Of a stretch of DNA of 64,000 nt, positions 10,603 through 52,305 are shown in pieces. Position 1 is the first letter of the stretch. Each line of letters opens with the position of its first letter. The stretch is from NCBI RefSeq assembly GCF_026248685.1, contig NZ_CP111036.1, positions 2,542,001-2,606,000 on the forward strand, in the 5' to 3' direction. The position numbers were made by a program, and so were the translations under genes. This DNA is from Haladaptatus caseinilyticus (GTDB lineage Archaea > Halobacteriota > Halobacteria > Halobacteriales > Haladaptataceae). Below the pieces are notes generated by a model. That model saw only the letters and a program-made list of their open reading frames with translations. It made no database searches and was not told where the DNA came from.

Positions 10603-11535
10603 ATGCAACTTTCCGGTAAACGAGTGCTCGTAACCGGCGGTGCCGGACTCGTCGGGTCACAGATGGTCGAAGATCTCGTCGCGGAGAACGACGTCGTCGT
10701 CGCGGACGATCTCTCCAACGGAATCCGGTCCTCCATTCCCGACGATGCGGAGTTCGTACAGGCCGATTTAACCGACGAAACGCGGGTCGCCGACGTTATC
10801 ACCGACGACTTGGACGCCGTTTTTCACTTCGCCGCGGCGGACAAATACGTCAACACGGACGACCCGCGCCCGCAGTTCGAGGAGAACGGCGAGATGACGT
10901 ACAACATCCTCGAACGAATGGACGAGGTTGGTGTCACGAACTTCGTCTTTACCTCCTCTTCGACGGTGTACGGCGAGGCTCCGCGGCCGACGCCGGAGGA
11001 TTACGCCCCCCTTGAACCCATCAGTATCTACGGTTCGGCGAAGCTCTCGGAGGAAGCACTCCTATCGACGTTCGCCCACTCCTACGATTTCACGGTATGG
11101 AACTTCCGCTTTGCAAACATCGTCGGCCCGCGGTTCGGCGCCGGCGTCGTCCCGGACTTCGTCGAGAAGCTGGACGACAACTCCGACGTGCTCACGATTC
11201 TCGGCAACGGACTGCAGGAGAAGTCGTACATGCACGTCACCGAATGTACCGAGGCGATTCGCTACGTCGTAGAGAACGCCGACGACGCGATGAACACCTA
11301 CAACCTCGGGACGAAAACGACTACCTCGGTCAACGCCATCGCCGACATCGTGGCTGATGTGATGGGACTCGACCCGGAATACGAGTACACCGGCGGTGAT
11401 CGCGGATGGACCGGTGACGTACCGAAGATGCGTCTCTCCATCGAAAAACTGTCCGCACTCGGTTGGCAACCCGCCCAGAGTAGCGACGACGCAGTTCGTC
11501 GGGCAGCAGAGCAGCTGTACGAAAGACTGGAGTAA
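10603..11535 (+). CDS. NAD-dependent epimerase/dehydratase (extended SDR, nucleotide-sugar type)
   Basis: A 310-residue extended short-chain dehydrogenase. The Rossmann motif VLVTGGAGLVGSQMVE (GGxGxxG) is at residues 8-23. The catalytic pair is in ISIYGSAKLSEE (Y-x-x-x-K), with SSSTVYGEAP before it. The substrate domain includes LGNGLQEKSYMHV. Relatives are UDP-glucose 4-epimerases and dTDP-glucose dehydratases that supply sugars for glycans and S-layer glycosylation. The exact sugar cannot be read from the sequence. It is transcribed divergently from nhaC and convergently to the protease block. Confidence 0.9.
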   Translation: MQLSGKRVLVTGGAGLVGSQMVEDLVAENDVVVADDLSNGIRSSIPDDAEFVQADLTDETRVADVITDDLDAVFHFAAADKYVNTDDPRPQFEENGEMTYNILERMDEVGVTNFVFTSSSTVYGEAPRPTPEDYAPLEPISIYGSAKLSEEALLSTFAHSYDFTVWNFRFANIVGPRFGAGVVPDFVEKLDDNSDVLTILGNGLQEKSYMHVTECTEAIRYVVENADDAMNTYNLGTKTTTSVNAIADIVADVMGLDPEYEYTGGDRGWTGDVPKMRLSIEKLSALGWQPAQSSDDAVRRAAEQLYERLE

Positions 11536-11558: not shown

Positions 11559-11891
11559 TCAGACCGAAAAATCGGTTCGCGCTTCGACGTCTTCCTCGAT
11601 GATATCGAGCGTGGCAACGACTGTGTAGTAGCCAGGCGTGGGGTCGGCCCACCCTCCCGAAAACGTCCTTCGTTCTCCGGGGTCGAAAGTCTCCGACTGA
11701 AGTGCTTGCGTGAACATCCGTCCGTCGCTTGCCCGCCAGATTTCGGCATCGTCTTCTAGCACTGCGAAATCCGCTTTGAGTCCGCTCCGGAAGGTAACGT
11801 CAACTGTGTCGTCCCCGGGATTTCGAACCGTCAGTTCGAACTCGACGTTTCCGTCGCTGGACGTCGCCGTCACATCGCTTTCGAGCGTCAT
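11559..11891 (-). CDS. BsuPI-like intracellular proteinase inhibitor
   Basis: A 110-residue protein with no signal peptide and therefore cytosolic. It matches the BsuPI family pattern: FELTVRNPGDDTVDVTFRSG, then DFAVLEDDAEIWRASDGRMF, FDPGERRTF and PGYYTVVATLD, an immunoglobulin-like beta sandwich. The founding member in Bacillus inhibits a major intracellular subtilisin-type protease. Here the gene lies 64 bp downstream of five tandem subtilisin genes on the same strand, which makes inhibition of those enzymes an obvious hypothesis. Its own promoter is not clear, so it could be read through from the last protease. The fold assignment is firm; the target is inferred. Confidence 0.85.
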   Translation of the reverse strand: MTLESDVTATSSDGNVEFELTVRNPGDDTVDVTFRSGLKADFAVLEDDAEIWRASDGRMFTQALQSETFDPGERRTFSGGWADPTPGYYTVVATLDIIEEDVEARTDFSV

Positions 11892-11955
11892 TGGTTCATC
11901 GTTCTACGGGCTGATTCGAAAAGGTTGTCCTCGCACTGATCGGATTCGGACGGAA

Positions 11956-13098
11956 TTACGTGCTGTCCGAGGAATCGAGTCCGAGTGCGGCGGCCACGTC
12001 GAGGAGGCCGGAGCCGGATTCGTTACTCGACAGGCCGATGTCTTCGGCAGTGGATTTCAGCTGGCTTCGAGCCTGACTCGCACTCTGGCCGTTGGCGATG
12101 AGTTGTGCCGCTGCGCCCGAGACGTGTGGACACGCCATCGACGTTCCGGAGAGCGTGTTGTACGTTCCTTCGAGATACGTCGAGTAGATGTCCGAGCCGG
12201 GTGCGGCGATTTCGACTTCCGGCCCCTGACTGGAGAACGACGAGAGGCCGTCGCTCTGGTTCGTCGAACTGACGGCGATACACTCGTCGTATGCGGCGGG
12301 ATACCCGACACAGTCCGTGCACGGTCCGTCGTTGCCGGCCGCGGCCACGAGGAGCACACCTTTGCTTGCGGCGTATTCACAGGCATCCTTGAGGGTACTC
12401 GACTCACCGCCACCGAGACTGAGACTGCCGACGTCCCATCCCTGGTCGGCCGTGTACTCGATACCCTTTGCGACGTCCGAGGTCGATCCGGAACCGGAAG
12501 CGGTGAGAACCTTCACGGCGTGGAGGGTCGCCTCCGTCGAGACGCCGACGACGCCTTGACTGTTGTTCACCGCGTTGGCGATACCGGCACAGTGGGTGCC
12601 GTGGCCGTTGTCGTCGTTCCAGAGGTTGCTGCTAGTTCCCCCAGTGAACGCTCGACCGGATCCGAGGTTGGCTTCCAAGTCCGGATGGCCGTCATCGATA
12701 CCGGTGTCGATGATGGCGATATCCGCACCGTTGCCGGTCTCACCGTTCGCATGGGCAACCTCCGCGTCGACGCGGTCGATGCCCCACGGAAGCGTCTGTG
12801 CGAGGGCGTGCATCGTTCCGTTCTCCTCGACGTAGCGAACGTCGCTCCGCTTTTCGAGTGCGGTAGCCGCCTTCTTGGGGAGGCGAAGCGTGAGCGCGTC
12901 GAAATTGAACTCACGAACGACATCGTTTGCGGCGTTCAGTGCCGCCTTGCGGCCACCCTCGGAACTGAATCCGATGTTCACTTCGACCTTGTCGTTGGGC
13001 TTCGCTGCCGCGAAACCGCTCGCGCCCGCGACTGCGAGCGAACCGCCGGCTAGCTTGAGCACATCTCGTCTCGTGGAATCGCTGGAATTTGGTACCAT
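11956..13098 (-). CDS. Halolysin-type S8 subtilisin, Tat-exported (array copy 1)
   Basis: A 380-residue secreted serine protease precursor. A Tat signal has Arg-Arg at 10-11 (STRRDVLKLAGG), followed by an Ala-rich hydrophobic stretch. The I9 propeptide spans about 35-101 (VEVNIGF to MHALAQ). The catalytic domain has Asp131 (IIDTGIDDGHPD), His166 (NGHGTHCAG), oxyanion Asn256 (AAAGND) and Ser320 (LSGTSMACPH). It ends LDVAAALGLDSSDST with no C-terminal extension, unlike classical halolysins of about 500 residues. The loop before His has no Cys, but Cys260/Cys263 form a CxxC motif. TTATAAA at 13124-13130 gives it its own promoter. Confidence 0.95.
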   Translation of the reverse strand: MVPNSSDSTRRDVLKLAGGSLAVAGASGFAAAKPNDKVEVNIGFSSEGGRKAALNAANDVVREFNFDALTLRLPKKAATALEKRSDVRYVEENGTMHALAQTLPWGIDRVDAEVAHANGETGNGADIAIIDTGIDDGHPDLEANLGSGRAFTGGTSSNLWNDDNGHGTHCAGIANAVNNSQGVVGVSTEATLHAVKVLTASGSGSTSDVAKGIEYTADQGWDVGSLSLGGGESSTLKDACEYAASKGVLLVAAAGNDGPCTDCVGYPAAYDECIAVSSTNQSDGLSSFSSQGPEVEIAAPGSDIYSTYLEGTYNTLSGTSMACPHVSGAAAQLIANGQSASQARSQLKSTAEDIGLSSNESGSGLLDVAAALGLDSSDST

Positions 13099-13123
13099 CC
13101 ATCAGGAATAAACGATTGAAAAC

Positions 13124-13130
13124 TTATAAA
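13124..13130 (-). promoter_or_regulatory. TATA box of protease copy 1
   Basis: TTTATAA on the minus strand, centred about 29 nt before the ATG at 13098, inside an AT-rich 243-bp gap between copies 1 and 2. Confidence 0.5.
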
Positions 13131-13341
13131 GGATTTCTACGATTTGATTTAATTGAATCTTTTTCAATACGGAATATTATATTCATTTCCCAAATAGGTT
13201 GTTGGATGATACCATGGCCTGCGTCACATGGTAGTCATCCTCTCGATTCGACGAGTGCACGTTGAAAACGACACACCTCGGCGGTAGCGAACCGCTGATC
13301 GTGATATATTCTGCCAAAAGAAGGTTCAGCGGCTTTTCAGT

Positions 13342-14502
13342 TTACGTGTCGTCGCTGGAGTCGAGACCGAGCGAAGCAGCCACGTCGAGGAGGCCGGAGC
13401 CGGACTCGTTACTCGACAGGCCGATATCTTCGGCCGTGTTCTTGAGCTGGCTACGTGCACCGGAGTTCGAGTAGCCCTGCGCCATCAACTGACCTCCTGC
13501 GCCCGCGACGTGTGGACACGCCATCGACGTTCCGGAGAGCGTGTTGTACGATTCGTCGGGGTACGTCGAGTAGATGTCCGAGCCGGGTGCGGCGATTTCG
13601 ACTTCCGGACCGGTCGAGGAGAACGACGAGAGGCCGTCGCTGGAGTTCGTCGAACTGACGGCCATCACTTCGGGGTAGGCGGCCGGATAGCCGACACAGT
13701 CCGAACATGGACCCGAGTTACCTGCCGCACCCACGAGGAGGACGCCACTGCTCTGGGCGTACTGGCAAGCGTCGCGGAGGGCCGAGGAACCGGACGAGCC
13801 GCCAAGGCTCATGCTCCCGACATCCCAACCCTGGTCGGCGACGTACTCGATACCGGCGGCGATGTCGGAGTACGATCCGCTACCGTTGTAGTTGAGCACC
13901 TTGACCGCGTGGAGCGTGATGTTCGGCCCGACACCGACGACGCCTTGGCTGTTGTCGTTGGCCGCCGCGATACCGGCACAGTGGGTGCCGTGGCCGTTGT
14001 CGTCGTCCCAGTTATAGTAACATTCACCATAAAACGAAGAACAGTTCACGAAGGCTCTACCGGCACCGAGATAGTCCTGTAGGTCGGGATGGTCGGAATC
14101 GATACCCGTGTCGATGATCGCGACGTCAGCCCCGCCGCCAAGATAACCGTTCGCGTGAGCGACGTCCGCATCGACGCGTTCGATGCCCCACGGTTCGGTT
14201 TCCGCGAGCGCCTGCATCGTACCGTTGTCTTCGACGTATCGAACGTTCGGGTTGCTCTCTAAAGCGGTTGCCGCCTTTTTCGGAACACGGATCGTCAGTG
14301 CATCGAAATTGAACTCACGAATCACGTCGCTTGCCGCGTCGCGGGCAAGCGTTCGTCCACGCTCGCTTTTGAAACCGACGTTGACCTCCACCAAATCGTT
14401 CGGCTTCGCGTTTGCAAAACCAGTAACCGAAAGTGCTGCTGCTGCTCCACCAGTTGCCTTGAGTACGTTTCGCCGCGAAACACCATCTTTGTTGCGTGGC
14501 AT
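13342..14502 (-). CDS. Halolysin-type S8 subtilisin, Tat-exported (array copy 2)
   Basis: A 386-residue paralogue of its neighbours. The Tat signal is VSRRNVLKATGG (Arg-Arg 10-11) and the I9 propeptide spans about 36-101. The catalytic residues are Asp131 (IIDTGIDSDHPD), His171 (NGHGTHCAG), Asn262 (GAAGNS) and Ser326 (LSGTSMACPH), all intact. The loop between Asp and His is longer than in copy 1 and carries a Cys pair (FVNCSSFYGECYY). A CxxC pair follows Asn262 (PCSDC). The C-terminal LGLDSSDDT tail is shared by the array. It should be folded in the cytosol, exported by Tat and matured outside the cell. Confidence 0.95.
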   Translation of the reverse strand: MPRNKDGVSRRNVLKATGGAAAALSVTGFANAKPNDLVEVNVGFKSERGRTLARDAASDVIREFNFDALTIRVPKKAATALESNPNVRYVEDNGTMQALAETEPWGIERVDADVAHANGYLGGGADVAIIDTGIDSDHPDLQDYLGAGRAFVNCSSFYGECYYNWDDDNGHGTHCAGIAAANDNSQGVVGVGPNITLHAVKVLNYNGSGSYSDIAAGIEYVADQGWDVGSMSLGGSSGSSALRDACQYAQSSGVLLVGAAGNSGPCSDCVGYPAAYPEVMAVSSTNSSDGLSSFSSTGPEVEIAAPGSDIYSTYPDESYNTLSGTSMACPHVAGAGGQLMAQGYSNSGARSQLKNTAEDIGLSSNESGSGLLDVAASLGLDSSDDT

Positions 14503-14528
14503 TGCGAATGCAACAATGGGGTATATTG

Positions 14529-14535
14529 TATTAAA
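14529..14535 (-). promoter_or_regulatory. TATA box of protease copy 2
   Basis: TTTAATA on the minus strand, centred about 30 nt before the ATG at 14502, within an AT-rich gap. Confidence 0.45.
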
Positions 14536-14619
14536 CTTTTCTCTGTAAAAAATATTAATTTATAATATCTAGTCTTAAATTAATACTTCGGGGGTGGAAC
14601 GTTCTCCCCTACGAAGTAG

Positions 14620-15744
14620 TCAGTTATCGGACGAATTTAGACCGAGTGCGGCGGCCACATCGACGAGACCGTATCCCTGTTCGTCACCGGAAAGGCCGAG
14701 GTCCTCGGCGGTGTCGCGAAGTCGTTGGCGTGCATCCGTATTCGAGTATCCCACAGCGGCCACCTGTGCTGCCGCACCCGAGACGTGTGCCGCCGCCATC
14801 GATGTACCAGAAAGCGTCTGATACGTATCGTTGTAGTACGTCGAGTAGATGTCCGAACCGGGGGCGGCGAGTTCGATTTCCGGACCGGTCGAGGAGAACG
14901 ATGAGAGGTCGTCGCTTTGGTTCGTCGCACTGACCGCGATGACTTCGGGTTCCGCGGCCGGATAGCCGACACAACCGCCGCTACACGGTCCGGAACCACC
15001 TGCAGAACCGACGAGAAGGGATCCCTGATTGTAGGCGTATTCGACGGCGTTTTCCACCGTCGAGGACTTGCTTCCACCGATGCTCAAATTGATGACGTCG
15101 TAGCCGCGATCCGCTGCCCATTCGATTCCGGCGGCGATATCGGAGTATGACCCGACGCCGGAACTGTCCAAGGCTTTGACCGCGTGGAGGGTCGCGCCGG
15201 GTGCGATGCTACCGACACCGGAGTAGTTGTTGACTGCAGCGATGGTTCCAGCGACGTGCGTTCCGTGACCGTTCTCGTCCGACCACGAACTTCCGTGATA
15301 GGTCTTTCCGGTCCCGAGGTTCGCTTGCAGGTCCGGATGGTCCGCGTCGATTCCCGTATCGATGACTGCCACGTCCGCTCCTGCTCCGGTATAACCGTTC
15401 GTCCCTGCGACGTCGGCGTCGACACGGTCGACCCCCCACGGGAGCGTTTCGGCGAGAGCACGCATTTGGCCGTTTTCTTCGACGTAGCTGACGTCCGGCG
15501 CGTTTTCGAGCGCGGCGACCGCCCGTTCCGGTACACGAATAGTCACTGCGTCGATGGATTCGAACTCTCGAACGACTTCGTTCGACGCCTCGAGTGCAAA
15601 CTGCCGTGCGGATGCAGTTTCGAACCCAACGTTCAGTTCTCGGAGTTCCTCACGTCCGGCGGTAACGCCGCTTCCACCGAGCGCGATGATCGATGCCCCT
15701 GTCGCCTTCAGTACGTTCCGCCGTGTCTTGGCTTGTCTTACCAT
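14620..15744 (-). CDS. Divergent S8 subtilisin, Tat-exported (array copy 3), oxyanion Asn replaced by Gly
   Basis: A 374-residue precursor. The start at 15744 (MVRQAKTRRNVLKATG) matches the N-termini of copies 4 and 5 better than the upstream ATG at 15753. Asp129 (VIDTGIDADHPD), His160 (NGHGTHVAG) and Ser315 (LSGTSMAAAH) are present. The oxyanion-hole Asn found in the other four copies is Gly250 (LVGSAGGSGPC), and the Pro that follows the Ser motif (GTSMACPH or GTSMATPH) is Ala319. The loop before His is the shortest (YHGSSWSDENGH) with no Cys, and the downstream Cys pair is CxxxC (CSGGC). It is the most diverged member, and may have lower activity or a different role. Confidence 0.93.
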   Translation of the reverse strand: MVRQAKTRRNVLKATGASIIALGGSGVTAGREELRELNVGFETASARQFALEASNEVVREFESIDAVTIRVPERAVAALENAPDVSYVEENGQMRALAETLPWGVDRVDADVAGTNGYTGAGADVAVIDTGIDADHPDLQANLGTGKTYHGSSWSDENGHGTHVAGTIAAVNNYSGVGSIAPGATLHAVKALDSSGVGSYSDIAAGIEWAADRGYDVINLSIGGSKSSTVENAVEYAYNQGSLLVGSAGGSGPCSGGCVGYPAAEPEVIAVSATNQSDDLSSFSSTGPEIELAAPGSDIYSTYYNDTYQTLSGTSMAAAHVSGAAAQVAAVGYSNTDARQRLRDTAEDLGLSGDEQGYGLVDVAAALGLNSSDN

Positions 15745-15769
15745 TGCCCTCATAAAGAATATCGGTCGG

Positions 15770-15780
15770 TATAATTTTTA
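15770..15780 (-). promoter_or_regulatory. TATA-like element of protease copy 3
   Basis: TAAAAATTATA on the minus strand, centred about 31 nt before the ATG at 15744. The transcript would have at most a few leader bases. Confidence 0.45.
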
Positions 15781-15911
15781 CCATATGAAATTCTAAAATT
15801 TATCTATTGACATAATAATACATTCGTAAGGCGAGTAATCCCCGTTCAACATACTAACGTTCACTGCTGCTCAGCGACAGTGAAGAGTAGACAAAAACGG
15901 TTACCGGACGA

Positions 15912-17102
15912 TTAGTTGTCGCTGGAGTCGAGACCGAGTGCGGCCGCCACGTCGAGCAGTCCCTGCCCTTGCTCGTTCGCCGGCAGGCCGAGGTCTTTCG
16001 CCGTGCTCAGGATTTGACTCTCGGCGTCGCGAGCGGAGTATCCCTGTGCCATCAGTTGGCCGACGGCACCGGCAACGTGCGGGGTCGCCATCGACGTCCC
16101 TGAATACGTGTCGTAGCCACCCGGAACCGACGAGTAGATGTCCGTCCCGGGTGCGATGATATCGACTTCCGGGCCTTGGCTGGAGAACGAAGACTGACCG
16201 TCACTCTCGTTCGAGGACGCCACTGCGATGGTCTCCGGGTACGCTGCCGGGTAGCCGACACAGTCGGTACACTGGCCGGAGTTACCTGCAGCCGCGATGA
16301 GCGAGACGCCGTTGTCGTAGGCGTACTGGATTGCATCGTGAAGTGCGGCGGAACCGGACGAACCACCGAGGCTCATGCTGGCAACGTCCCAGCCTTGGTC
16401 GGCAACGTACTCGACACCGGCGGCGATGTCGGAGAACGAACCGCTACCGGCACAGTCCAGCACTTTGACCGCGTGGAGCGTTGCGTTCGGCGAGACGCCG
16501 ACGACACCTTCCGTATTGTCGTCGCCTGCTGCGATACCGGCACAATGGGTCCCGTGGTTGTTGTCGTCCGACCACGAGTTGTTACAGGAATTGCTGTTCC
16601 CGGAGAACGCACAGTTTCCGAAGTAACCGCCGTTGCCACAGGAGACGAAGGCTTTCCCGGAACCGAGGTGGTCCTGTAGGTCCGGATGATCGTCGTCGAT
16701 TCCAGTGTCGACGATAGCGATGTCGGCACCTGCTCCGAGGTCTCCGTTCGCGTGAGCGACCTCCGCGTCGACGCGGTCGATGCCCCACGGGAGGGTCTCC
16801 GCGAGGGCTTCCATCGTACCGTTTGCCTCGACGTAGCGCACGTTCGGGTTCTTTTCGAGTGCGGTTGCTGTCCGCTTCGGCACTCGGATGGTCATTACTT
16901 TAATCGAGTTGAACTCCCGAACGACCTCGTCCGCACTGCTTCGGGCCATCGCTCGGCCGCGTTCGCTGTTGAATCCGACGTTGACCTCCACCTTGTCGGT
17001 CGGAGCCGCGGACGCGAGACCAGTCGCACCTGCTGCCGCCAGTGAACCGCCGGTGAGTTTGAGTACATTCCGCCGCGAAACGCCATTGGCTTTCCTTACC
17101 AT
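15912..17102 (-). CDS. Halolysin-type S8 subtilisin, Tat-exported (array copy 4), Cys-rich loop
   Basis: A 396-residue precursor, the longest of the array. The Tat signal is VSRRNVLKLTGG, and the I9 propeptide spans about 36-101. The catalytic residues are Asp132 (IVDTGIDDDHPD), His183 (NNHGTHCAG), Asn274 (AAAGNS) and Ser337 (YSGTSMATPH). The loop between Asp and His is expanded and carries three Cys (SCGNGGYFGNCAF, then NSCNN). A further Cys is at 217 (LDCAGS), and the CxxC is QCTDC. Several Cys in a secreted haloarchaeal enzyme suggests disulfides or metal binding. It has its own TATA box. Confidence 0.95.
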   Translation of the reverse strand: MVRKANGVSRRNVLKLTGGSLAAAGATGLASAAPTDKVEVNVGFNSERGRAMARSSADEVVREFNSIKVMTIRVPKRTATALEKNPNVRYVEANGTMEALAETLPWGIDRVDAEVAHANGDLGAGADIAIVDTGIDDDHPDLQDHLGSGKAFVSCGNGGYFGNCAFSGNSNSCNNSWSDDNNHGTHCAGIAAGDDNTEGVVGVSPNATLHAVKVLDCAGSGSFSDIAAGVEYVADQGWDVASMSLGGSSGSAALHDAIQYAYDNGVSLIAAAGNSGQCTDCVGYPAAYPETIAVASSNESDGQSSFSSQGPEVDIIAPGTDIYSSVPGGYDTYSGTSMATPHVAGAVGQLMAQGYSARDAESQILSTAKDLGLPANEQGQGLLDVAAALGLDSSDN

Positions 17103-17127
17103 ACTATTTGTTAGAACCTACCATAGA

Positions 17128-17135
17128 ATAAATAT
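17128..17135 (-). promoter_or_regulatory. TATA box of protease copy 4
   Basis: ATATTTAT on the minus strand, centred about 29 nt before the ATG at 17102, in a very AT-rich gap. Confidence 0.45.
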
Positions 17136-17244
17136 CTTATGATATTAATATAAGACAATTTATTTATAGATTAACTTAAAACTTCTACTCTAAATAAATA
17201 CTCGGGATAATACGCGTTCGGATCGTCGAAAACCGGCCGACCGG

Positions 17245-18402
17245 TCAGTTGTCGCTGGAGTCGAGACCGAGTGCGGCGGCCACGTCGAGGAGGCCGGAGC
17301 CGGACTCGTTACTCGACAGGCCGATGTCTTCGGCGGTCTGTTTGATCGTATCGCGTGCCCCCGTGTTCGACGACCCGTTGGCCATTAGTTGACCACCTGC
17401 GCCCGCGACGTGTGGAGTCGCCATCGACGTCCCGGAGAACGTATCGTAGCCGCCGGGAACGGTCGAGTAGATGTCCGTCCCGGGTGCGGCGATTTCGACT
17501 TCCGGCCCCTGACTGGAGAACGACGAGAGGTCGTCGCTGGAGTTCGTCGAACTGACGGCCATCACTTCGGGGTAGGCGGCCGGATAGCCGACACAGTCCG
17601 AACATGGACCCGAGTTACCCGCTGCACCAACGAGGAAGACGCCATTGTTCACGGCGTATTGACAAGCATCACGAAGCGCTTGTGATCCCGAAGATGCCCC
17701 GAGACTCATGCTCCCGACATCCCAACCCTGGTCGGCGACGTACTCGATACCGGCGGCGATGTCGGAGAAGGTACCGCTGCCGCGGCTGTCGAGGACTTTA
17801 ACGGCGTGGAGCGTCGCCTCGGTCGAGACGCCGATGACACCTTGGCTGTTGTCCACGGCGTCAGCGATACCGGCACAGTGGGTGCCGTGGTCGTTGTCGT
17901 CATCCCAGTCATATCGGCACTTGCTCGGTCCTCCTTTACAGCTGACGAACGCTTTGCCAGCACCGAGGTTAGCCTGCAAATCGGGATGGTCGGAGTCGAT
18001 GCCCGTATCGAGGATGGCGATGTCGGCACCTGCTCCCGTTTCGCCGTTTGCGTGGGCAACGTCTGCGTCGATGCGGTCGACACCCCACGGCTCGGTCTCC
18101 GCGAGGGCGTGCATCGTGCCGTTTTCCTCGACGTAGCGTACGTTCGGGTTGCTCTGTAGTCCGGAAATCGCTTTCTTGGCGACTCGAATCGTCACCACGT
18201 CGATCGAGTCGAAGTCGCGAACTACGTCGCTTGCGGCGCTCAGCGCCGCGCTACGACCGCGTCCGCTCTTGACCCCGACGTTGACTTCCACCGTGTCGGT
18301 CGGTGCCGCGGACGCGAGACCAGCCGTACCGGCCATTGCCAGTGAACCGCCAGTGAGTTTGAGTACATTCCGCCGCGAAACGCCATTAGCTTTCCTTGCC
18401 AT
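17245..18402 (-). CDS. Halolysin-type S8 subtilisin, Tat-exported (array copy 5)
   Basis: A 385-residue precursor, very similar to copy 4 at its N-terminus (Tat signal VSRRNVLKLTGG, then ASAAPTDTVEVNVG). The I9 propeptide spans about 36-102. Catalytic residues are Asp132 (ILDTGIDSDHPD), His172 (NDHGTHCAG), Asn263 (GAAGNS) and Ser326 (FSGTSMATPH). The loop before His has a Cys pair (VSCKGGPSKCRYD), and Cys267/Cys270 form the CxxC. This is the first protease in transcription order, next to the orphan propeptide gene. ATTTAAAT at 18427-18434 is a well-placed TATA box. Confidence 0.95.
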   Translation of the reverse strand: MARKANGVSRRNVLKLTGGSLAMAGTAGLASAAPTDTVEVNVGVKSGRGRSAALSAASDVVRDFDSIDVVTIRVAKKAISGLQSNPNVRYVEENGTMHALAETEPWGVDRIDADVAHANGETGAGADIAILDTGIDSDHPDLQANLGAGKAFVSCKGGPSKCRYDWDDDNDHGTHCAGIADAVDNSQGVIGVSTEATLHAVKVLDSRGSGTFSDIAAGIEYVADQGWDVGSMSLGASSGSQALRDACQYAVNNGVFLVGAAGNSGPCSDCVGYPAAYPEVMAVSSTNSSDDLSSFSSQGPEVEIAAPGTDIYSTVPGGYDTFSGTSMATPHVAGAGGQLMANGSSNTGARDTIKQTAEDIGLSSNESGSGLLDVAAALGLDSSDN

Positions 18403-18426
18403 GGTATTTGCTACAATCTCGCACCA

Positions 18427-18434
18427 ATTTAAAT
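18427..18434 (-). promoter_or_regulatory. TATA box of protease copy 5
   Basis: ATTTAAAT (palindromic), centred about 28 nt before the ATG at 18402, so the mRNA is probably leaderless. Confidence 0.5.
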
Positions 18435-18510
18435 AATTTACTATTTATAATTATTAAAATAATTGATTTAGATGATTCTAATAACTGCTGGCACGTGCGC
18501 ACCGACGGAT

Positions 18511-18747
18511 TCAGTCGTCGAACGCGCCTGCCTGTCCGTTCGTTTCGACGTATCGAATTTCGGGATGGTTCTCCAGTTCAGTTCGTTTTTCCCGCGGAAT
18601 AAGCACCGTCAAAACATCGAGTGAATCGAGTTCGCGGACCACCGAGACGGAGACATCCATCGTCGCTTTTCGACCACTGCTTCCGTCGAAACCAACGTTC
18701 ACTTCGACTACGTCTTGCCCGGATTCCCCTGTGCCACTCTCAGTCAC
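18511..18747 (-). CDS. Free-standing subtilisin propeptide (I9-like) protein, candidate protease inhibitor
   Basis: From the GTG at 18747 it encodes 78 residues (VTESGTGESGQDVVEVNVGF). The GTG is preferred over an upstream ATG because TTTAATAA at 18771-18778 lies 27 nt before it, and because the extra residues upstream look non-coding. Residues from DVVEVNVGF onward align with the propeptides of the adjacent proteases: VVRELDSLDVLTVLIPRE against their VVRDFDSIDVVTIRV, and HPEIRYVETNG against NPNVRYVEENG. It stops at ...GQAGAFDD, the point where the protease precursors pass from propeptide to mature enzyme. There is no Tat signal, so it should be cytosolic. A free propeptide can act as an inhibitor or intermolecular chaperone; the role is inferred. 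Confidence 0.85.
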   Translation of the reverse strand: MTESGTGESGQDVVEVNVGFDGSSGRKATMDVSVSVVRELDSLDVLTVLIPREKRTELENHPEIRYVETNGQAGAFDD

Positions 18748-18770: not shown

Positions 18771-18778
18771 TTATTAAA
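18771..18778 (-). promoter_or_regulatory. TATA box of the orphan propeptide gene
   Basis: TTTAATAA on the minus strand, centred 27 nt before the GTG at 18747. This position supports the GTG as the leaderless start. Confidence 0.5.
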
Positions 18779-18907: not shown

Positions 18908-19666
18908 GTGCAAATCGTCGGGTACGACACGGGTGTCTCGGAAGATGGCGCACCTGCTCTGCTGGTGAGCGACGGTGATTCTCTCGTACGCGAGGAACTG
19001 GCTCGGGGTTCCAAACTCGAATACACGCTAGGCCAACGACACTGCGCCGGAACGTTCGACGGTTCTGTCCACATCCCTTGTACTCGTCCAAGCGCGCCCT
19101 ACTGTGATTCCCACACAAGCACGTGGATCTGTGCTCGCTGTACCGGCACCTGTCTCAAGGACGAGATGGACTGTTACGAGGATCACGCGATTTATCTGGC
19201 GGCGTTCGCTCCGGCAACGTTCAAAGTCGGCGTAACCCGTGAATGGCGACTCGACACCCGTCTCCGGGAGCAGGGTGCAGACCGCGCCGCGCATCTCCAG
19301 ACCGTAAAAGACGGTCGAATTGCCCGTCAACTCGAAGCCGAAATCGCTCGCGATTTCACGGACCGGGTCCGCGTCCCGACGAAAATTCGAGACCTCAACC
19401 GATCAGTGGACGAACCGGCGTGGCAAAACGCCCTGTCGGCGTTCGACCCGATCGACACGTTCTCTTTCGATTACCGGTTAGAGCTCGACTCCACTCCGGT
19501 CCACGAGACGCTGGCCAGCGGAACCGTCATCGGCACACAGGGTCGTGTTCTCGTCCTCGAACACGGAGGGACTGCCTACGCAACCGACATGCGTGATCTC
19601 GTCGGCTACGAACTCGAACCCGGTGCGACCGACCGTCGTCTGCAGGCCAGCCTCGGCACCTTTTAG
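18908..19666 (+). CDS. DUF2797 family protein with Cys-rich zinc site
   Basis: A 252-residue protein. It starts at a GTG (18908) placed about 25 nt after a TTTTACTTT TATA-like element, so it is probably leaderless. The N-terminal region has Cys/His clusters (QRHCAGTF, IPCTRP, YCDSHTSTWICARCTGTC), consistent with a zinc-binding module. A central segment, HAIYLAAFAPATFKVGVTRE, resembles the GIY-YIG-like core noted in DUF2797. C-terminal beta strands end ASLGTF. It is cytosolic, and the biochemical function is unknown. It lies 23 bp before the XPB helicase gene on the same strand, so the two probably share a transcript. Confidence 0.85.
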   Translation: MQIVGYDTGVSEDGAPALLVSDGDSLVREELARGSKLEYTLGQRHCAGTFDGSVHIPCTRPSAPYCDSHTSTWICARCTGTCLKDEMDCYEDHAIYLAAFAPATFKVGVTREWRLDTRLREQGADRAAHLQTVKDGRIARQLEAEIARDFTDRVRVPTKIRDLNRSVDEPAWQNALSAFDPIDTFSFDYRLELDSTPVHETLASGTVIGTQGRVLVLEHGGTAYATDMRDLVGYELEPGATDRRLQASLGTF

Positions 19667-35848: not shown

Positions 35849-36244
35849 ATGGACTACAGTCAGTTTATCGGACAGGTACAGCACCGACTGAAGTTGGACA
35901 CACAGGGAAAGACCGTAAGAGCCATTCGCGCCACACTGACGACGCTCGGCGAACGATTGCAACCCGGCGAAGCGAAAGACCTCGCAGGGCCGCTCCCGAT
36001 GGAAATCGACTGGTATCTCGAACGGGCCGAATCAGGCCAACGGTTCCATTTCGACGAGTTCGTTTCACGCGTCGCCGAACGCGAGGGTATCGAAAATCAG
36101 GACGCACTCTTTCATGCGAAGGGCGTGATGTCCCTCGTCGCAGAAGTCGTTCCGGAAGGCGAGTTTCAACAGGTCCGCCAGCAGTTACCGGACGAGTACG
36201 ACCCGTTGTTCGAACTCGTCGGAAACGAAAACGCGTTCGACTAA
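35849..36244 (+). CDS. DUF2267 family protein
   Basis: A 131-residue cytosolic helical protein (MDYSQFIGQVQHRLKLDTQG). GGGGG lies just before the ATG and may act as a ribosome-binding site. The DUF2267 pattern is visible: TVRAIRATLTTLGERLQPGE, AKDLAGPLPMEIDWYLE, then FHFDEFVSRVAEREG, in two copies of a five-helix module. Function unknown; members are common in halophiles. Its stop overlaps the stop of the convergent gene by 4 nt. Confidence 0.88.
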   Translation: MDYSQFIGQVQHRLKLDTQGKTVRAIRATLTTLGERLQPGEAKDLAGPLPMEIDWYLERAESGQRFHFDEFVSRVAEREGIENQDALFHAKGVMSLVAEVVPEGEFQQVRQQLPDEYDPLFELVGNENAFD

Positions 36245-36621
36245 TTCCGTGTCCGGCGAGCCTCGGGACTCGGAACGTGAGTTAGCAATTGCACGGCGTC
36301 GTGGATGTCGTGTGTCTTCACGACGAGTTCCGCGACTTCTCGGACCGTACACTCCGTTTCTATTTCGTAGCCGTAACAGCGCGCGTACAGTGCCAGCCAG
36401 TCGTTCAGCGCCTGCTCCAATCGCGTCATCTCCCATTCGTCGAACCGCGCGAACTCGCCCGTCCGTCCCTCTATATACACGGCAACCACATCGCCGACGC
36501 CCGAGCGCAGGAACGAAAGCGCCCGTTTTTCGTCCGGCGGATTTGTTGGCGGGTCGAACGACTCACGATCGGCTTTCGCTCGCTTGGCGAGGGTAGCGAT
36601 TCTGTCGCGGTACTCGGTCAT
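36241..36621 (-). CDS. Conserved haloarchaeal helical protein, function unknown
   Basis: A 126-residue cytosolic protein from the ATG at 36621 (MTEYRDRIATLAKRAKADRE). It has FVDPPTNPPDE-like text (FDPPTNPPDEKRALSFLRSG), a central VGDVVAVYIEGRTG segment and helical ends (YEIETECTVREVAELVVK). It precedes nothing on its own strand and follows fixCX by 13 bp on the same strand, so it may be the last gene of that operon. No family recognised. Confidence 0.68.
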   Translation of the reverse strand: MTEYRDRIATLAKRAKADRESFDPPTNPPDEKRALSFLRSGVGDVVAVYIEGRTGEFARFDEWEMTRLEQALNDWLALYARCYGYEIETECTVREVAELVVKTHDIHDAVQLLTHVPSPEARRTRN

Positions 36622-36634
36622 CCGTCCCTCCTCT

Positions 36635-38308
36635 TCACCCTTGTTTGAACTCGACGCCCTTGTTGCCGCGTGGATGCTCCCACTCCGTCTCGGCGACGAT
36701 GGCGCACGTTCCACACTCCACGCACGGTTGGGTGTCGAGACTCACGATTTTCTCCTCGTGACCGTTCATCTGTACGGTTTCTTCGCGATAACAGCCGCCG
36801 CCGAAATCCTTCGCGCTGACGGGGCAGGCCGACACTGCTGCACCGCTCGCTTCGTAGGAGTCGTTCCGGAGTCGAATGTGCGGGTTGCCCACGTCAGTAT
36901 CGTAGGTCAGGTCACCGATTCGGTCGGCGAGGCTCTTCGGTTCGACTTCGTTCTCGTCCTCGATTTCGGTGCCCAGTTCCTCCGCGATAACCGTCGGAAG
37001 CGTGACGTAGGGCGTCTTCGTATCCGGAATCATCGAGGAAAGGAACGGGGAACTGTACAACCGTTCGAGCTGTTTCTCCATTGCTCCCGAGCGAAGCACC
37101 GCCCGTCCGATCGGCGACGAAAGCAGGGAATCAGTGAGGCCGGCCAACTGCTCGTTCTCGCCGAGTTTGCCGAGGGTTCGGTACTGACGCGGTCTGAGTT
37201 TGCCCATCACGCCTTCGTCCTTCAGCTTCTTTTCGTAGAGGCGGCCCGCCTTCTCGGAGTCCCCGCGCATTCGCGCCTCCGCGAACGCTTCGGCGGCGAG
37301 CGCGCCCGCACTGACGGCGTGGTTCATTCCCTTGATAATCGGCCCCTGCGCCTGCATCTGCCCACCAGCGTCGCCGACGAGAACGAGTCGCCCGCGATGC
37401 GGCGCGGGATGTGCTGCTTTCTTCGAATCGGGGACGAGTTTCGCGCTGTACTCCACTTCGTCGTAGTGGCCGTTCAACCATTGGGCGAGCAGCGGATGGG
37501 TTAACAGATTGTCGAGCAGTCGGTGTGGCTCCGCCTCCTCCGCAACGAGGCTGTCGAGGTGGAAGACGGTCCCGATCGAAAGGGAATCCTGATTCGTGTA
37601 GAGGAAGCCACCGCCCCGAACGTCGTCGAAGAGGTTCCCCGAGAACAGGTGTGCCTCACCCGTGTCCGAGCCGACATCGAATCGATCCGCGATGACGTCC
37701 TCGGGCATGTCGATGACGGCTTTGACGCCTTGGAACCACTCTTCCGGTTCGTCCCAGTTCATCAGTCCCGCATCGCGTGCGAGTTCGCTGTTTACGCCGT
37801 CCGCCGCGACGATGAAATCGGCTTTGATTGGGTCGAGTTCGTCGCAGGTGACGCCGACGATTTCCCCGTTTTCGCGGAGCAGACCGTTCACCCGAACGCC
37901 GGTTAGCAGGCCGCCGCCCGTTTCGCTGGTCATCTCGTGAACCTGATCGGCGAGCCACGAGTCCATCTTTCGCCGGAGCACCGCGTCGGACCACTCCGTG
38001 TCGTGTTCGTGGAGTCGGGTGATATCGAACGATTTCACCTTCTCGTCGGCCACGTTGTGGATGTTGTAGCTCGTAATCGGGCGTTCCGCCGCCTCCTCGC
38101 GGAAGTCGGGAAACAACGAGTCGATGGTGTATGGAGCCGACTCCTCGGCGTAGATGAGACCGCCGGAGACGTTTTTCGCCCCGGCCTCGACACCGCGTTC
38201 GAGGACGAGCGTTTCGATTCCGTTTCGTGCGAGCGTCGCGGCCGCCGCGGCCCCGCCGGGACCGGCACCGACCACGACGGCTTCGTAATGTTCGTAATCC
38301 TCTATCAT
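36635..38308 (-). CDS. fixC: FixC-FixX fusion: ETF-quinone oxidoreductase with C-terminal ferredoxin
   Basis: A 557-residue protein. Residues 1-40 hold the FAD motif VVVGAGPGGAAAAATLARNG; GAKNVSGGLIYAEESAPYTI and LVLVGDAGGQMQAQGPIIKG follow, as in FixC/ETF-QO. From about 490 it becomes a FixX-like ferredoxin with Cys in SACPVSAKDFGGGCYREET and QPCVECGTCAIVAE, ending WEHPRGNKGVEFKQG. It would pass electrons from the FixAB flavoprotein to quinone or another carrier. It is 6 bp downstream of fixB on the same strand. In many bacteria fixC and fixX are separate genes. Confidence 0.93.
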   Translation of the reverse strand: MIEDYEHYEAVVVGAGPGGAAAAATLARNGIETLVLERGVEAGAKNVSGGLIYAEESAPYTIDSLFPDFREEAAERPITSYNIHNVADEKVKSFDITRLHEHDTEWSDAVLRRKMDSWLADQVHEMTSETGGGLLTGVRVNGLLRENGEIVGVTCDELDPIKADFIVAADGVNSELARDAGLMNWDEPEEWFQGVKAVIDMPEDVIADRFDVGSDTGEAHLFSGNLFDDVRGGGFLYTNQDSLSIGTVFHLDSLVAEEAEPHRLLDNLLTHPLLAQWLNGHYDEVEYSAKLVPDSKKAAHPAPHRGRLVLVGDAGGQMQAQGPIIKGMNHAVSAGALAAEAFAEARMRGDSEKAGRLYEKKLKDEGVMGKLRPRQYRTLGKLGENEQLAGLTDSLLSSPIGRAVLRSGAMEKQLERLYSSPFLSSMIPDTKTPYVTLPTVIAEELGTEIEDENEVEPKSLADRIGDLTYDTDVGNPHIRLRNDSYEASGAAVSACPVSAKDFGGGCYREETVQMNGHEEKIVSLDTQPCVECGTCAIVAETEWEHPRGNKGVEFKQG

Positions 38309-38314
38309 CGTCGA

Positions 38315-39853
38315 TCAGTCATCGTCTTCCGCTACGACCGCACTCAGTTCGCCCGCCTCGACCGCTTCCGTGAGGCGGGGGAGCACATCGAAGAGGTCAC
38401 CCTCGATGAAGTAATCGCTGAAGTCCCGAATATCGGCGTCCGTATCGGTGTTGATGGCGATGATGGTGTCGGACTCGTCCATCCCGACCTTGTGCTGAAT
38501 CGCGCCGCTGATACCCGCCGCGATGTAGAGCGGCGGTTGGACGATTTGACCCGTTTCGCCGATTTGGCGCTCCTCGCTCACGTACTGTTCGACGTGACCG
38601 TCCACGCTGTACGACGCCGTAACCACGCCTCGTGAAAGGCCGAGATCGGCGTCGTCGAAAGCGCCGACGAGGTCCAACGCGAGCTCGATTCCCTCCGTCG
38701 GGTCGTCGCCGATACCGCGGCCGATTGCCACGATAACCTCGCGCCCGGTCAAATCGACGCCCGTATCGAGCGTATCCCACTCCGATACTTCGACGCGATA
38801 CCAGTCGTCGGGTGTATCGATGTCGTGTGAGACGATTTCGCCTTCCCGTTCGGGATCCGCTTCCATCGCATCGAAGCTCCCCGGAATCACGGAACAGCCT
38901 TGTGGGTGGAACTCCCGATCCGGGTTGTCGATGCAGAGGATCGTCGAATATTCGAACCCGGAGAAGTCGGGACGTTTCATGTGAAGGATCCGCTCGAAAT
39001 CGATCTTCTCGCCGGGTTCTCCCGTTTTGACGGGATTGCTGATGAGTTCGTTGGTGATGGTGAGTCCCGAACAGTCGCTCGCGAGTCCGGAGTCGAGTTC
39101 ACCCTGTACCTGCGCGGAGAGATCGCGTCCGTTGTTCGTCGCCGGGAAGAGGAAGTAACGCGGTTTGTCGTACTCCTTCCAGTCGGTCTCCGCACGAGCC
39201 ATGTCCGCGACGATTTCCGTGTACGGCTTGTGTCGGAATCGTTCCAGTCGCTCGTCGTCGTGGTACACTGCCACGTCGGCGCCGAGGGAGATACATTCCT
39301 CCGCGAGGTCGCGCATATCGTCACCGACGAGGACGGCCACGACCCGTTCGTCGTCGCCGTACTCGTCTTCGTAGCCGTCCATCAACTCGCGGGCCTTCCC
39401 GAGCATCTCCTTCGATACGTCGAGGAGTTCGCCACCCTGTGTCTCGCAGTAGACCCACATGTCGCGGTAGACGCCGTCCTCCAACGCTCTGACGTGTTTT
39501 TTGTCCGCGGTGGGGTGACTGAGGCCGTCGTCTTCCTCCTCGTCCGTTTCATCGGACTCGGCTTCGGAATCGGACACGTCCGATTCCGAAGTCGTTGCCT
39601 CGCCTTCGTCGGGGTCTTCCACGTCTTCCGCGGTCGATTCGTACTCTCCCTCGGTTCCCGTGTCTCCGGCTTCGTCCGTGCCCGTATCGTCGAGTTCGTC
39701 GATTCGGGCCTGGATGACTTCCTTCGCCGTTTTTCGGTCTTTTCCACTCTCCTCGTCGGCGAGCAGGTCGTCCAGCGTGCCGGGGTCTTCGACGGTCTGT
39801 ACGTCCTCTTCGAGTTCCTCGACGGTTCTATCGCCTGGGTTTACGTCCGTCAT
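38315..39853 (-). CDS. fixB: Electron transfer flavoprotein alpha subunit (FixB) with acidic N-terminal extension
   Basis: A 512-residue protein. Residues 1-125 are an acidic extension (VEELEEDVQTVEDPGTLDDL, then a Glu/Asp/Ser/Thr-rich stretch ending SDETDEEEDDGLS). ETF-alpha begins near DMWVYCETQGGELLDVSKEM. The FAD-binding C-terminal domain contains VIVAIGRGIGDDPTEGIELA, GASRGVVTASYSVDGHVEQY-like text (LSRGVVTASYSVDGHVEQYV), ETGQIVQPPLYIAAGISGAI and IIAINTDTDADI. It pairs with FixA to carry FAD and electrons. It is 2 bp downstream of fixA. The extension is far longer than in bacterial FixB. Confidence 0.93.
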   Translation of the reverse strand: MTDVNPGDRTVEELEEDVQTVEDPGTLDDLLADEESGKDRKTAKEVIQARIDELDDTGTDEAGDTGTEGEYESTAEDVEDPDEGEATTSESDVSDSEAESDETDEEEDDGLSHPTADKKHVRALEDGVYRDMWVYCETQGGELLDVSKEMLGKARELMDGYEDEYGDDERVVAVLVGDDMRDLAEECISLGADVAVYHDDERLERFRHKPYTEIVADMARAETDWKEYDKPRYFLFPATNNGRDLSAQVQGELDSGLASDCSGLTITNELISNPVKTGEPGEKIDFERILHMKRPDFSGFEYSTILCIDNPDREFHPQGCSVIPGSFDAMEADPEREGEIVSHDIDTPDDWYRVEVSEWDTLDTGVDLTGREVIVAIGRGIGDDPTEGIELALDLVGAFDDADLGLSRGVVTASYSVDGHVEQYVSEERQIGETGQIVQPPLYIAAGISGAIQHKVGMDESDTIIAINTDTDADIRDFSDYFIEGDLFDVLPRLTEAVEAGELSAVVAEDDD

Positions 39854-39855
39854 GA

Positions 39856-40704
39856 TTAGTCCCCCGTCGCGAACGGCCGCATCGTTTCGAGCACTTCCGC
39901 CATCGCGTCCTCGTCGTCGGGCGTGACCATCGTGGCGTCCCGCTCGGCGGGAGCCTTCGGAATCGGGTCAACCGACGACACGATCGTCGGCGACCCGTCC
40001 AGTCCGATATACTCCGGGTCGAGATTGAGGTCGGCGTGATCCCACGTCGAGAGGTACTCTTCGTACTCCTCGGCGCGTATCTCCGTCTCGGCTTTCAGGT
40101 GCTTTTTCCGGAGTCGGTGGGCCGCCTTTCTGTACGACGGTTCGTATTCGGGGTCGGTGACGATGAACGCCGGAAGCGGCGCGGTGACCGTCTCGATTTC
40201 GTCCACGTCTCCCTCCACCAGGCGCTTCGCACGCACTTGTCGCTCGTCTTCGTCCACCTCCATCGCGATGACGTGGGTGATGATCGGATAGTCCAAACAC
40301 CACGCCGTCTGTGGCCCGGTTTGACCCGTTTCGCCGTCAGCAGTTTTGAAACCTGCAAAGATGAGATCCGGTTCACCGATTTTCTCGATGCCCGCCGAGA
40401 GGGTGATTGCCGTCGCCCACGTGTCGGCGGCGGCCATCTCCCGGTCGGAGAGGAGATAGCAGTCGTCGGCGTACACCGTCATCGCTTCTCTAAGGACGTC
40501 GGCATAGCCCGGCGGTCCCATGCTCATCGCGCTCACCTGCCCGCCGTGCTTCACCTTCGTTTGGAGCGCGGCTTGGAGGGCGAACTCGTCGTTCGGGTTC
40601 ATTACGGTCGGTGTTTTTCCCCGTTCGAGGTGACCATCCTCGTCGAACGACACTTGGCCCTCACGGAAGTCCGGAACGCCCTTGGTCAACACGACCGAGT
40701 GCAT
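39856..40704 (-). CDS. fixA: Electron transfer flavoprotein beta subunit (FixA)
   Basis: A 282-residue protein (MHSVVLTKGVPDFREGQVSF). Typical ETF-beta text follows: VMNPNDEFALQAALQTK, VSAMSMGPPGYADVLREAMT, ILSDREMAAADTWATAITLS-like text (YLLSDREMAAADTWATAITL) and the AMP-binding loop TADGETGQTGPQTAWCLDYP. It is the first gene of fixA-fixB-fixCX on the minus strand. In other microbes FixABCX bifurcates electrons from NADH to quinone and ferredoxin. The 170 bp upstream (40705-40874) hold the promoter region only. Confidence 0.93.
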   Translation of the reverse strand: MHSVVLTKGVPDFREGQVSFDEDGHLERGKTPTVMNPNDEFALQAALQTKVKHGGQVSAMSMGPPGYADVLREAMTVYADDCYLLSDREMAAADTWATAITLSAGIEKIGEPDLIFAGFKTADGETGQTGPQTAWCLDYPIITHVIAMEVDEDERQVRAKRLVEGDVDEIETVTAPLPAFIVTDPEYEPSYRKAAHRLRKKHLKAETEIRAEEYEEYLSTWDHADLNLDPEYIGLDGSPTIVSSVDPIPKAPAERDATMVTPDDEDAMAEVLETMRPFATGD

Positions 40705-40874
40705 CGATACCTCCTGCCATGAGTGTGTTTAGTTTGCATGCGTCACTCTGTACCAAATCCCCCAGACGTTATTATACTGTCGGAGAACCAACAACTAATT
40801 GACATTCTTCCGCGATACCGCTCGCTGACGATGTCTGTCACTCTTGTGAAACAACCACGAGAACGTGTCAGAAA

Positions 40875-41918
40875 TTAGGCTTGTGGGGCAGGACCGTCGG
40901 ACGTGCTGCGTTCTCGCTTATGGGACGTTTCGGCCGTTTCGACCTCATCTTCGGCGGTTTCGGATTCGTCGGTCGGTTTCCGCTTCTCATTTCGAATCAT
41001 CGTCATCTCGCCACGGGCACGCATGATTCCATCGGCGGTGGCGTTCTCGTGGAATTCGAGGTCCGTACAGGAAACGTCGCCGAGGATTTCCGCCTCGTCC
41101 TCGAGGACGACGGTTCCATTTCGGGTCGTCACGTCGCCGTGAATCCGCGTCCCGGACCCGACGACGATGTCCCCGCGAGCACGAAGGCTGCCGAACACCT
41201 CGTTGTCCTCGCCGACGACGATTTCCTCAGCACGGATGTTTCCGTGGAGGCGACAGTCGTCGCCGATAGTTGCGGGAGTCGAGACGCGCCACGCATCGTC
41301 GCTGACGTGCGCACCCCGAGGGATGACCGCCGGGTTCGCGTCGCTTCCCTCCAGCATCTCGTCGATGACGTTCTGGGCGGCTTCCTCCTCGCCGAGCCGG
41401 AGCAGTTGGGAGAGATAGACGAAGAGAAACACGACGGTCGGCATCGGGTTCCGAATGACGATCCATCCGTTCGCTTCGAAGCCGTCGTCGATGTGAACGT
41501 CGTCGCCGATGTCGAGATCTCCGCTGACCATCAATCGTCCGTCGACGTGAACGCGCTCGCCCAAGTACGCGTCCTGTCCAACGAGAACGTCGCCCTCGAC
41601 TTCCGACCAGAGGTCGAGGCGACAGTCCGCCTCGGCTTCGATATGCCCGCCAAACGTCGTTCGCTCGCCCGCGATGACGTGGTTTCCACGCACGCCGAAC
41701 TCGACAGTGCTCTGTGCGCCGACGATGATGTCACCGTCGGTTACAAGGTCGTGTTCTTCGACGGTGGTTCCGTCGGGGATCGATAGTTCATCCAGTGGGT
41801 CGGAGCGAAGCGGCACACATTCTACCAGCGAGTCCCGCGTAATAAATCCTCCCGAGAACGTCTGACGCTCGTCTGCCGAAATCACTGAAGCGTTTTTGCG
41901 ACCGCTTCGATTCCACAT
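40875..41918 (-). CDS. Bactofilin/polymer-forming beta-helix protein with predicted membrane-proximal segment
   Basis: A 347-residue protein with repeated hexapeptide-like turns in two blocks: about 50-150 (TDGDIIVGAQSTVEFGVRGN, VEGDVLVGQDAYLGERVHVD) and about 215-310 (IRAEEIVVGEDNEVFGSLRA, ILGDVSCTDLEFHENATADG). Between them lies a hydrophobic segment (PTVVFLFVYLSQLLRLGEEE). This pattern matches the right-handed beta-helix of bactofilins, which polymerise without nucleotide. Related haloarchaeal proteins (halofilins) help set cell shape. The C-terminus is a charged tail. The start ATG (41918) is the only one close to the upstream promoter; the first 45 residues are less conserved in character. 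Confidence 0.78.
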   Translation of the reverse strand: MWNRSGRKNASVISADERQTFSGGFITRDSLVECVPLRSDPLDELSIPDGTTVEEHDLVTDGDIIVGAQSTVEFGVRGNHVIAGERTTFGGHIEAEADCRLDLWSEVEGDVLVGQDAYLGERVHVDGRLMVSGDLDIGDDVHIDDGFEANGWIVIRNPMPTVVFLFVYLSQLLRLGEEEAAQNVIDEMLEGSDANPAVIPRGAHVSDDAWRVSTPATIGDDCRLHGNIRAEEIVVGEDNEVFGSLRARGDIVVGSGTRIHGDVTTRNGTVVLEDEAEILGDVSCTDLEFHENATADGIMRARGEMTMIRNEKRKPTDESETAEDEVETAETSHKRERSTSDGPAPQA

Positions 41919-41960
41919 CGTTTTGTAGCTTTTTTATTTGCCGCGAGCAAACGATGGGGT

Positions 41961-42158
41961 ATGACTTCACTTTCATTCGACGACGAGGGTGTCGATGTAG
42001 TTCACGAGGGGACGGAGTTCCGGATGTCGAAAGACCTCATCGAGGAGGCGACCCAGAAGTCCTACTTCGACGTAACCGACCACGAGGTGCTTCGCCTCGT
42101 GGAAAAAAACCCAGCGCTCGGCGGACAGGCGCGACGAATCGGCGACATCATCCGATAG
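41961..42158 (+). CDS. DUF5800 family small protein
   Basis: A 65-residue acidic protein (MTSLSFDDEGVDVVHEGTEF) with DLIEEATQKSYFDVTDHEVL and the end LGGQARRIGDIIR. It matches my recollection of haloarchaeal DUF5800. A TTTTTTATTT run at about 41929-41938 is a TATA box 27 nt before the ATG, so it is probably leaderless. Function unknown. Confidence 0.8.
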   Translation: MTSLSFDDEGVDVVHEGTEFRMSKDLIEEATQKSYFDVTDHEVLRLVEKNPALGGQARRIGDIIR

Positions 42159-42217
42159 CACATTCGGAACGGAGTCCCATCCGATAGGATTTAGGTAATC
42201 CCGCCGAAGGGTCGAAC

Positions 42218-42349
42218 ATGAACCTTCCAGCCGACTTCGACCACCCCGCGTGGCTGACCGCGGCGAGCACGATCGCATCCTATTTGCTTATTCTCGTCGT
42301 TATGACCGTTCTGCTGTTTGGGGTTCCGTACCTGATCTTCAGCGCGTAG
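42218..42349 (+). CDS. 43-residue single-pass membrane microprotein
   Basis: ATG at 42218 (MNLPADFDHPAWLTAASTIA), a hydrophobic helix (SYLLILVVMTVLLFGVPYLI) and a TAG at 42347-42349. It follows the DUF5800 gene by 59 bp on the same strand. The N-terminal amphipathic part with FDHPAW and the single span are typical of small haloarchaeal membrane proteins. Function unknown. Confidence 0.65.
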   Translation: MNLPADFDHPAWLTAASTIASYLLILVVMTVLLFGVPYLIFSA

Positions 42350-42520
42350 GATGCCGGAGTTCATCTCGCTGGCGTAGCTTCTTTGCGTCGTTGTGATTGC
42401 CGATGAGTGACCGCCCCCGGTTCGAGTTTCACCGAGCGGTTACTGTCGTCACGATACTAACCGCTTTCGGAGATGCGAAAATCGAAAGACGAAAACCGAA
42501 AGGACCGACTGTGGAATACC

Positions 42521-43735: not shown

Positions 43736-43877
43736 CAGTTCCGGGTAAGTGCCTGTCTCTTAAGAGGCTTCGGGTGACAGACCTTTTCGAGGTGTTTTGC
43801 TGCCCATCAGGATAATTCCTGAAGGTAATAAACTAGAAAGGGAAATATTATTACCCTGTATTCGGAATAGGTGATTG

Positions 43878-44153: not shown

Positions 44154-44302
44154 ACCGAACGTTTTTATCTGAATACGCGGCCAATGGCGGCCATGTCTTC
44201 GGAACCCCTGCTTGTCATCTCCACCATCCATCCCTCGTTCTCACGACCGCGTCGTGTCGCTCACGGAAATCATTTAACAGCAGGCGGCCAACGAACAAAT
44301 CA

Positions 44303-52304: not shown

Positions 52305-52305
52305 C

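Follow-up and report, generated by a model that had tools for sequence, protein, structure and literature searches.

A tandem array of Tat-type subtilases flanked by a BsuPI-family gene and a stand-alone propeptide gene in Haladaptatus, with a candidate role in cytosolic self-protection

Substrates of the Tat pathway fold before export. The Tat-dependent halolysin SptA is described as self-activating in the cytosol (PMC6085418), and hindering its export as leading to intracellular mature enzyme and cell death (Du 2015, cited in PMC6085418), so a cytosolic guard against such enzymes has reason to exist. Among described proteins, B. subtilis IPI carries an MFTQA stretch that is the part docked into the subtilisin cleft (PMC3901451). 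IPI was removed from MEROPS, the possibility that it is a competing substrate was not excluded, and Rigden 2013 both doubts subtilisin inhibition as its main role and reports that, among species with completely sequenced genomes, none has an IPI homologue in the vicinity of a subtilisin gene (PMC3901451). The 2013 work did not settle whether IPI/BsuPI truly inhibits subtilisins, and the missing gene linkage belonged to that debate. Small stand-alone proteins resembling subtilase propeptides have been described as well, namely SUB1-ProM of Plasmodium and, in family I9, yeast proteinase B inhibitor 2 and Pleurotus proteinase A inhibitor 1, for which the C-terminal tail is described as important (cited in PMC6993865).

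The window (the whole stretch of DNA analysed, 64,000 nucleotides) derives from a Haladaptatus genome and contains seven genes, all on the minus strand and spanning 18747-11559, which are listed with their border genes in Table 1. These comprise an orphan stand-alone propeptide gene, five subtilases (P5 to P1) and a BsuPI gene. The initial annotation had them running without interruption, which is correct as to strand and placement and does not extend to a single transcript: a TATA-like box lies ∼31 bp upstream of the orphan and of most array proteases, so the genes share a strand rather than one transcript. For P3, homology points to the ATG at 15744 as the more probable start, rather than 15753. 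Elsewhere in the window, AT skew is strong across positions 36000-56000, falling to -0.22 (38-40 kb) and rising to +0.35 (46-48 kb).

Table 1. Features of the locus, and relatives of P3 that share its oxyanion-hole change
Feature	Coordinates	Strand	Details
DUF2797 gene, divergent border of cassette	18908..19666	+	kept across the order
TATA-like box TTTAAT	18773..18778	-	31 bp upstream of orphan GTG
Orphan stand-alone subtilisin propeptide	18511..18747	-	78 aa; GTG start; no export signal by inspection
Protease P5, Tat-type S8 subtilase	17245..18402	-	385 aa; without C-terminal extension; D, H, N, S kept
Protease P4, Tat-type S8 subtilase	15912..17102	-	396 aa; Pfam and alignment
Protease P3, Tat-type S8 subtilase	14620..15753	-	oxyanion-hole Asn to Gly (SAGGSGP)
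Protease P2, Tat-type S8 subtilase	13342..14502	-	386 aa; Pfam and alignment
Protease P1, Tat-type S8 subtilase	11956..13098	-	380 aa; Pfam and alignment
BsuPI/IPI-like protein	11559..11891	-	110 aa; 64 bp behind P1; no export signal by inspection
NAD-dependent epimerase, convergent border of cassette	10603..11535	+	kept across the order
Gly-bearing members, Haladaptatus			window P3 and orthologues L090, L092-L094, L096, L097
Gly-bearing members, sister genus			L099-L102, L104, L105, L108, L110, L111, L113, L115

All five proteases match the S8 Pfam family (E 1e-52 to 5e-57) and carry (S/T)RR(N/D)VLK plus a hydrophobic stretch, a Tat signal by inspection; each combines the Tat signal with the S8 catalytic triad, the hallmarks of a halolysin. 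Our inspection of the sequences agrees with the original claim that every protease has a Tat signal and that both end genes have no export signal. The C-terminal extension of the SptA type is missing from all five, which end directly after the catalytic domain. More widely, proteases in the slot linked to BsuPI mostly have 0-19 aa after this domain (L118-L177); most halolysins outside the slot have 100-480 aa (L188-L204). Slot and non-slot copies cluster on the protease tree (7 changes versus 18 when shuffled), yet they do not form one clade, and simple vertical inheritance of the slot proteases was rejected, as families are intermixed on the tree, which has poor resolution. A comparison of the characterised HlyHap of Haladaptatus sp. 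DYF46 (1,203 bp, PMC12893001) with array members found no match in length (∼1,191, 1,143 and 1,200 bp).

Alignment of the catalytic domains revealed a feature absent from the initial annotation, in that the oxyanion-hole Asn present in P1, P2, P4 and P5 is replaced by Gly in P3. One array member carries this change in 7/9 Haladaptatus genomes and in most sister-genus arrays, and the Gly-bearing members form one well-supported group (98/82, two damaged copies included), a distinct sub-clade spanning two genera. In the sister genus, the Gly-bearing member usually sits beside or near BsuPI. Changes at the oxyanion-hole Asn of subtilisin BPN' sharply lower activity. P3 keeps its catalytic triad, as do nearly all Gly-bearing members, and its dN/dS of 0.14 reflects purifying selection equal to that on P4 and P5. 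P3 may have weak or altered activity and serve a separate, conserved function. By motif regexes, the sister genus had seemed to contain pseudoproteases that were fully degenerate; this claim was dropped because the alignment shows the triad kept in nearly all, with mainly the oxyanion Asn changed.

The BsuPI gene product matches PF12690 over residues 3-96 with 94 bits (cut-off 22.9, E=6e-27) and aligns with B. subtilis IPI (3ISY, E 1e-9) such that RMFTQALQ pairs with KMFTQAFQ. This putative inhibitory stretch is among the best-kept parts of the family: across 87 haloarchaeal BsuPI sequences, its Phe is conserved in 98% and its Gln in 94%. The gene is under purifying selection (dN/dS 0.19). No clear TATA-like box precedes BsuPI, with or without a protease upstream, and a promoter differing by the presence of the upstream protease was looked for with no difference seen.

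Comparison across the family showed that the arrangement is conserved. Members of the genus identified by name are H. salinisoli, H. halobius, H. litoreus, H. pallidirubidus and strain DYF46. In all nine Haladaptatus genomes, DUF2797, the orphan, two to five proteases, BsuPI and the epimerase follow in that order, so that linkage of the end genes to the proteases in relatives, the check put forward with the initial annotation, was borne out within the genus. BsuPI occupies this spot in 28/28 family genomes, with 1-10 proteases adjoining in 24 of them; in the remaining four (L098, L103, L106 and L107) it is in place with no protease. One of these, L098 (genome G009), encodes a short halolysin 71% identical to P5 about 147 kb away. 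The sister genus (18 genomes) has no orphan and 0 to 10 proteases, with BsuPI always in place.

The linkage of BsuPI and protease also reaches across the whole order, where PF12690 is found in 220/392 genomes; of the control genomes, B. subtilis was the only one with a reported PF12690 match. We examined 59 BsuPI loci outside the family, from 47 genera, picked by genus and match strength rather than at random. In 22 of them, representing 20 genera and 7/8 families, the gene immediately upstream on the same strand encodes a protease, mostly with a gap of 45-140 bp; the protease is downstream in one further locus, and 36 have no adjoining protease. We estimate that chance would provide such a neighbour at well under 1% of loci, taking a 4 Mb genome to hold about ten S8 genes. 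In most of the 59 loci, protease or not, the divergent neighbour is DUF2797, and across L178-L238 and the window the DUF2797 and epimerase genes are neighbours in many Halobacteriales, with the cassette between them or absent. This haloarchaeal linkage contradicts the statement of Rigden 2013, and a text search of the open-access literature found no later paper on it.

Retention of the two partners is asymmetric. Among genomes that lack BsuPI, the slot is free of proteases at 39 of 40 DUF2797 loci, the epimerase often being next to DUF2797; in the one exception (G368), BsuPI is present in frameshifted form. From the 59 loci and these 40, the slot is seen with protease(s) and BsuPI, with BsuPI alone, or empty, and not with a protease alone (Fisher p ∼1e-9 for the association, kinship among genomes ignored). 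Genome-wide, 117 genomes have both a close halolysin and BsuPI, 11 the protease only, 103 BsuPI only and 161 neither, again ignoring kinship. Among the 220 BsuPI genomes, 15 had no P5-like S8 match reported, on scoring limited to a few candidates. Because BsuPI persists without a neighbouring protease, and a P5-like S8 match is missing from these 15 genomes, the array is not necessarily its target.

The orphan shares 41-47% identity with the propeptides of its five neighbours. It scores 18.5 bits against PF22148 (Fervidolysin_NPro), below the cut-off of 21, as do the propeptides of P1 and P2, and the Pfam search gave no match to PF05922 (I9). Its predicted structure (pLDDT 79) has subtilisin propeptides as the best PDB matches in Foldseek, at a marginal E of 0.02; a match at rank 48 to a NapD-like fold, that of a Tat proofreading protein, was set aside as a generic ferredoxin-type resemblance. 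The gene is intact in all nine Haladaptatus genomes with the same GTG start (74-78 aa), contains no catalytic domain, has an AT-rich or TATA-like box at ∼31 bp in most copies, and evolves under purifying selection (median dN/dS 0.22), so like BsuPI it is a real, independent gene. The nine orphans form one clade apart from the protease propeptides (SH-aLRT 99), and in an order-wide profile search they scored 134-144 bits against at most 92 bits for protease propeptides, with no orphan found outside Haladaptatus. The orphan is a single-origin, Haladaptatus-specific gene, more recent than BsuPI. When aligned with mature subtilisin, six of the nine orphan tails would stop at about position P2 relative to the cleavage point, and those of the other three, the window copy included, would pass this point, with Phe/Leu at position P1 and Asp at P1'.

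We lean, at little better than even confidence, towards an account in which BsuPI has since ancient times guarded the cytosol against Tat halolysins that activate themselves, with the orphan as a second, Haladaptatus-specific inhibitor. The locus would be an expanded halolysin-IPI cassette placed between the DUF2797 and epimerase border genes. Short Tat subtilases, having no C-terminal extension, would fold in the cytosol before export and could self-activate there; BsuPI would stay in the cytosol and block the active site of any enzyme maturing before, or instead of, export. Where the local protease has gone, other halolysins could be its target. In Haladaptatus, a propeptide copy with neither Tat signal nor catalytic domain would have arisen once and become the second inhibitor in the cytosol; its binding in trans would resemble that of the cis propeptide once cleaved. 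For both end proteins we infer the cytosolic location, the inhibition and the protection.

Several other explanations bear on BsuPI. It could be a general intracellular inhibitor or binder whose main target is a cytosolic protease or other halolysins, beside which the array proteases landed and multiplied. This is consistent with the presence of BsuPI at the DUF2797 border without a protease (36/59 loci and 4/28 family genomes), with an MFTQA-type motif kept similarly whether or not a protease adjoins, and with the doubts of Rigden 2013 about subtilisin inhibition (PMC3901451). Against it, slot proteases in seven outside families share one orientation and one place immediately before BsuPI, and the slot was never seen with protease only; we judge it unlikely, albeit a serious contender. 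A linkage of mere co-transcriptional or regulatory convenience, with BsuPI expressed by read-through and acting after secretion or lysis, would suit a gene that lies 64 bp behind P1 with no clear TATA-like box; since BsuPI has no export signal by inspection and also survives alone, we regard this as highly improbable.

Two alternatives concern the orphan. Subtilisin propeptides are intramolecular chaperones that can work in trans, and the orphan shares their fold, which would fit a foldase acting in trans on the array proteases instead of inhibiting them. Each of these proteases retains a propeptide, so that a helper is not needed, and sister-genus arrays manage with no orphan; its presence is also independent of P3, as G002 and G006 carry the orphan and lack P3, on which ground a pairing of the orphan with P3 was rejected too. 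A foldase is rather doubtful. That the orphan is the decaying remnant of a sixth protease is suggested by its homology to the adjacent propeptides and its place at the end of a tandem array, and is scarcely credible given the same intact GTG start in nine of nine species, the TATA-like box before most copies, and a search downstream for catalytic-domain remains that found none; the dN/dS of 0.22 and single clade likewise speak against a remnant, and a pseudogene was rejected on them.

Returning to the guard account, the initial proposal that two inhibitors at the ends form a self-protection module holds in part. The arrangement is conserved and the mechanism plausible, with better support for BsuPI; the matched pair does not stand, as BsuPI is old and order-wide and the orphan is recent and confined to one genus, with sister arrays of up to 10 proteases lacking it, and BsuPI also persists with no adjoining protease, as the family and outside loci both show. 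A bolder extension, which we find plausible but somewhat short of probable, is that short Tat halolysins depend on BsuPI as a linked cytosolic immunity protein, so that a protease is tolerated in this slot only with its guard and the guard can outlive the protease, as in toxin-antitoxin systems. Haladaptatus would then have gained another guard, unrelated in fold, through release of a propeptide; this may be the first inhibitor of the stand-alone propeptide type to be described from a prokaryote. The linkage over many genera and the asymmetric pattern of loss make the IPI question directly testable with named enzymes, and bear on how cells survive making proteases that are folded, and may already become active, ahead of export through Tat.

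Compared with the known systems, the orphan resembles Plasmodium SUB1-ProM in being a stand-alone propeptide-like gene, syntenic with subtilase genes and of the same propeptide fold (PMC6993865). SUB1-ProM, however, has a secretory signal, is probably vacuolar and is a measured inhibitor (PMC6993865), whereas the orphan is archaeal, signal-less and a putative inhibitor. Yeast proteinase B inhibitor 2 and Pleurotus proteinase A inhibitor 1 are likewise small, stand-alone and propeptide-like, but are described in PMC6993865 as having no significant similarity to enzyme propeptides, while the orphan is clearly homologous to its neighbours. The array proteases share the Tat signal, propeptide and S8 domain of the halolysins SptA, HlyR4 and Nep (PMC6085418), from which array and slot members differ in mostly lacking the C-terminal extension, and P3 in lacking the oxyanion Asn. 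Finally, the haloarchaeal BsuPI belongs to the same family as B. subtilis IPI (BsuPI, PF12690, 3ISY; partner Isp1), aligns with it over MFTQA, likewise has no export signal by inspection, and has an S8 subtilase as its, here putative, partner; unlike the intracellular Isp1, the partners in Haladaptatus are Tat-exported halolysins that are genetically linked to it.
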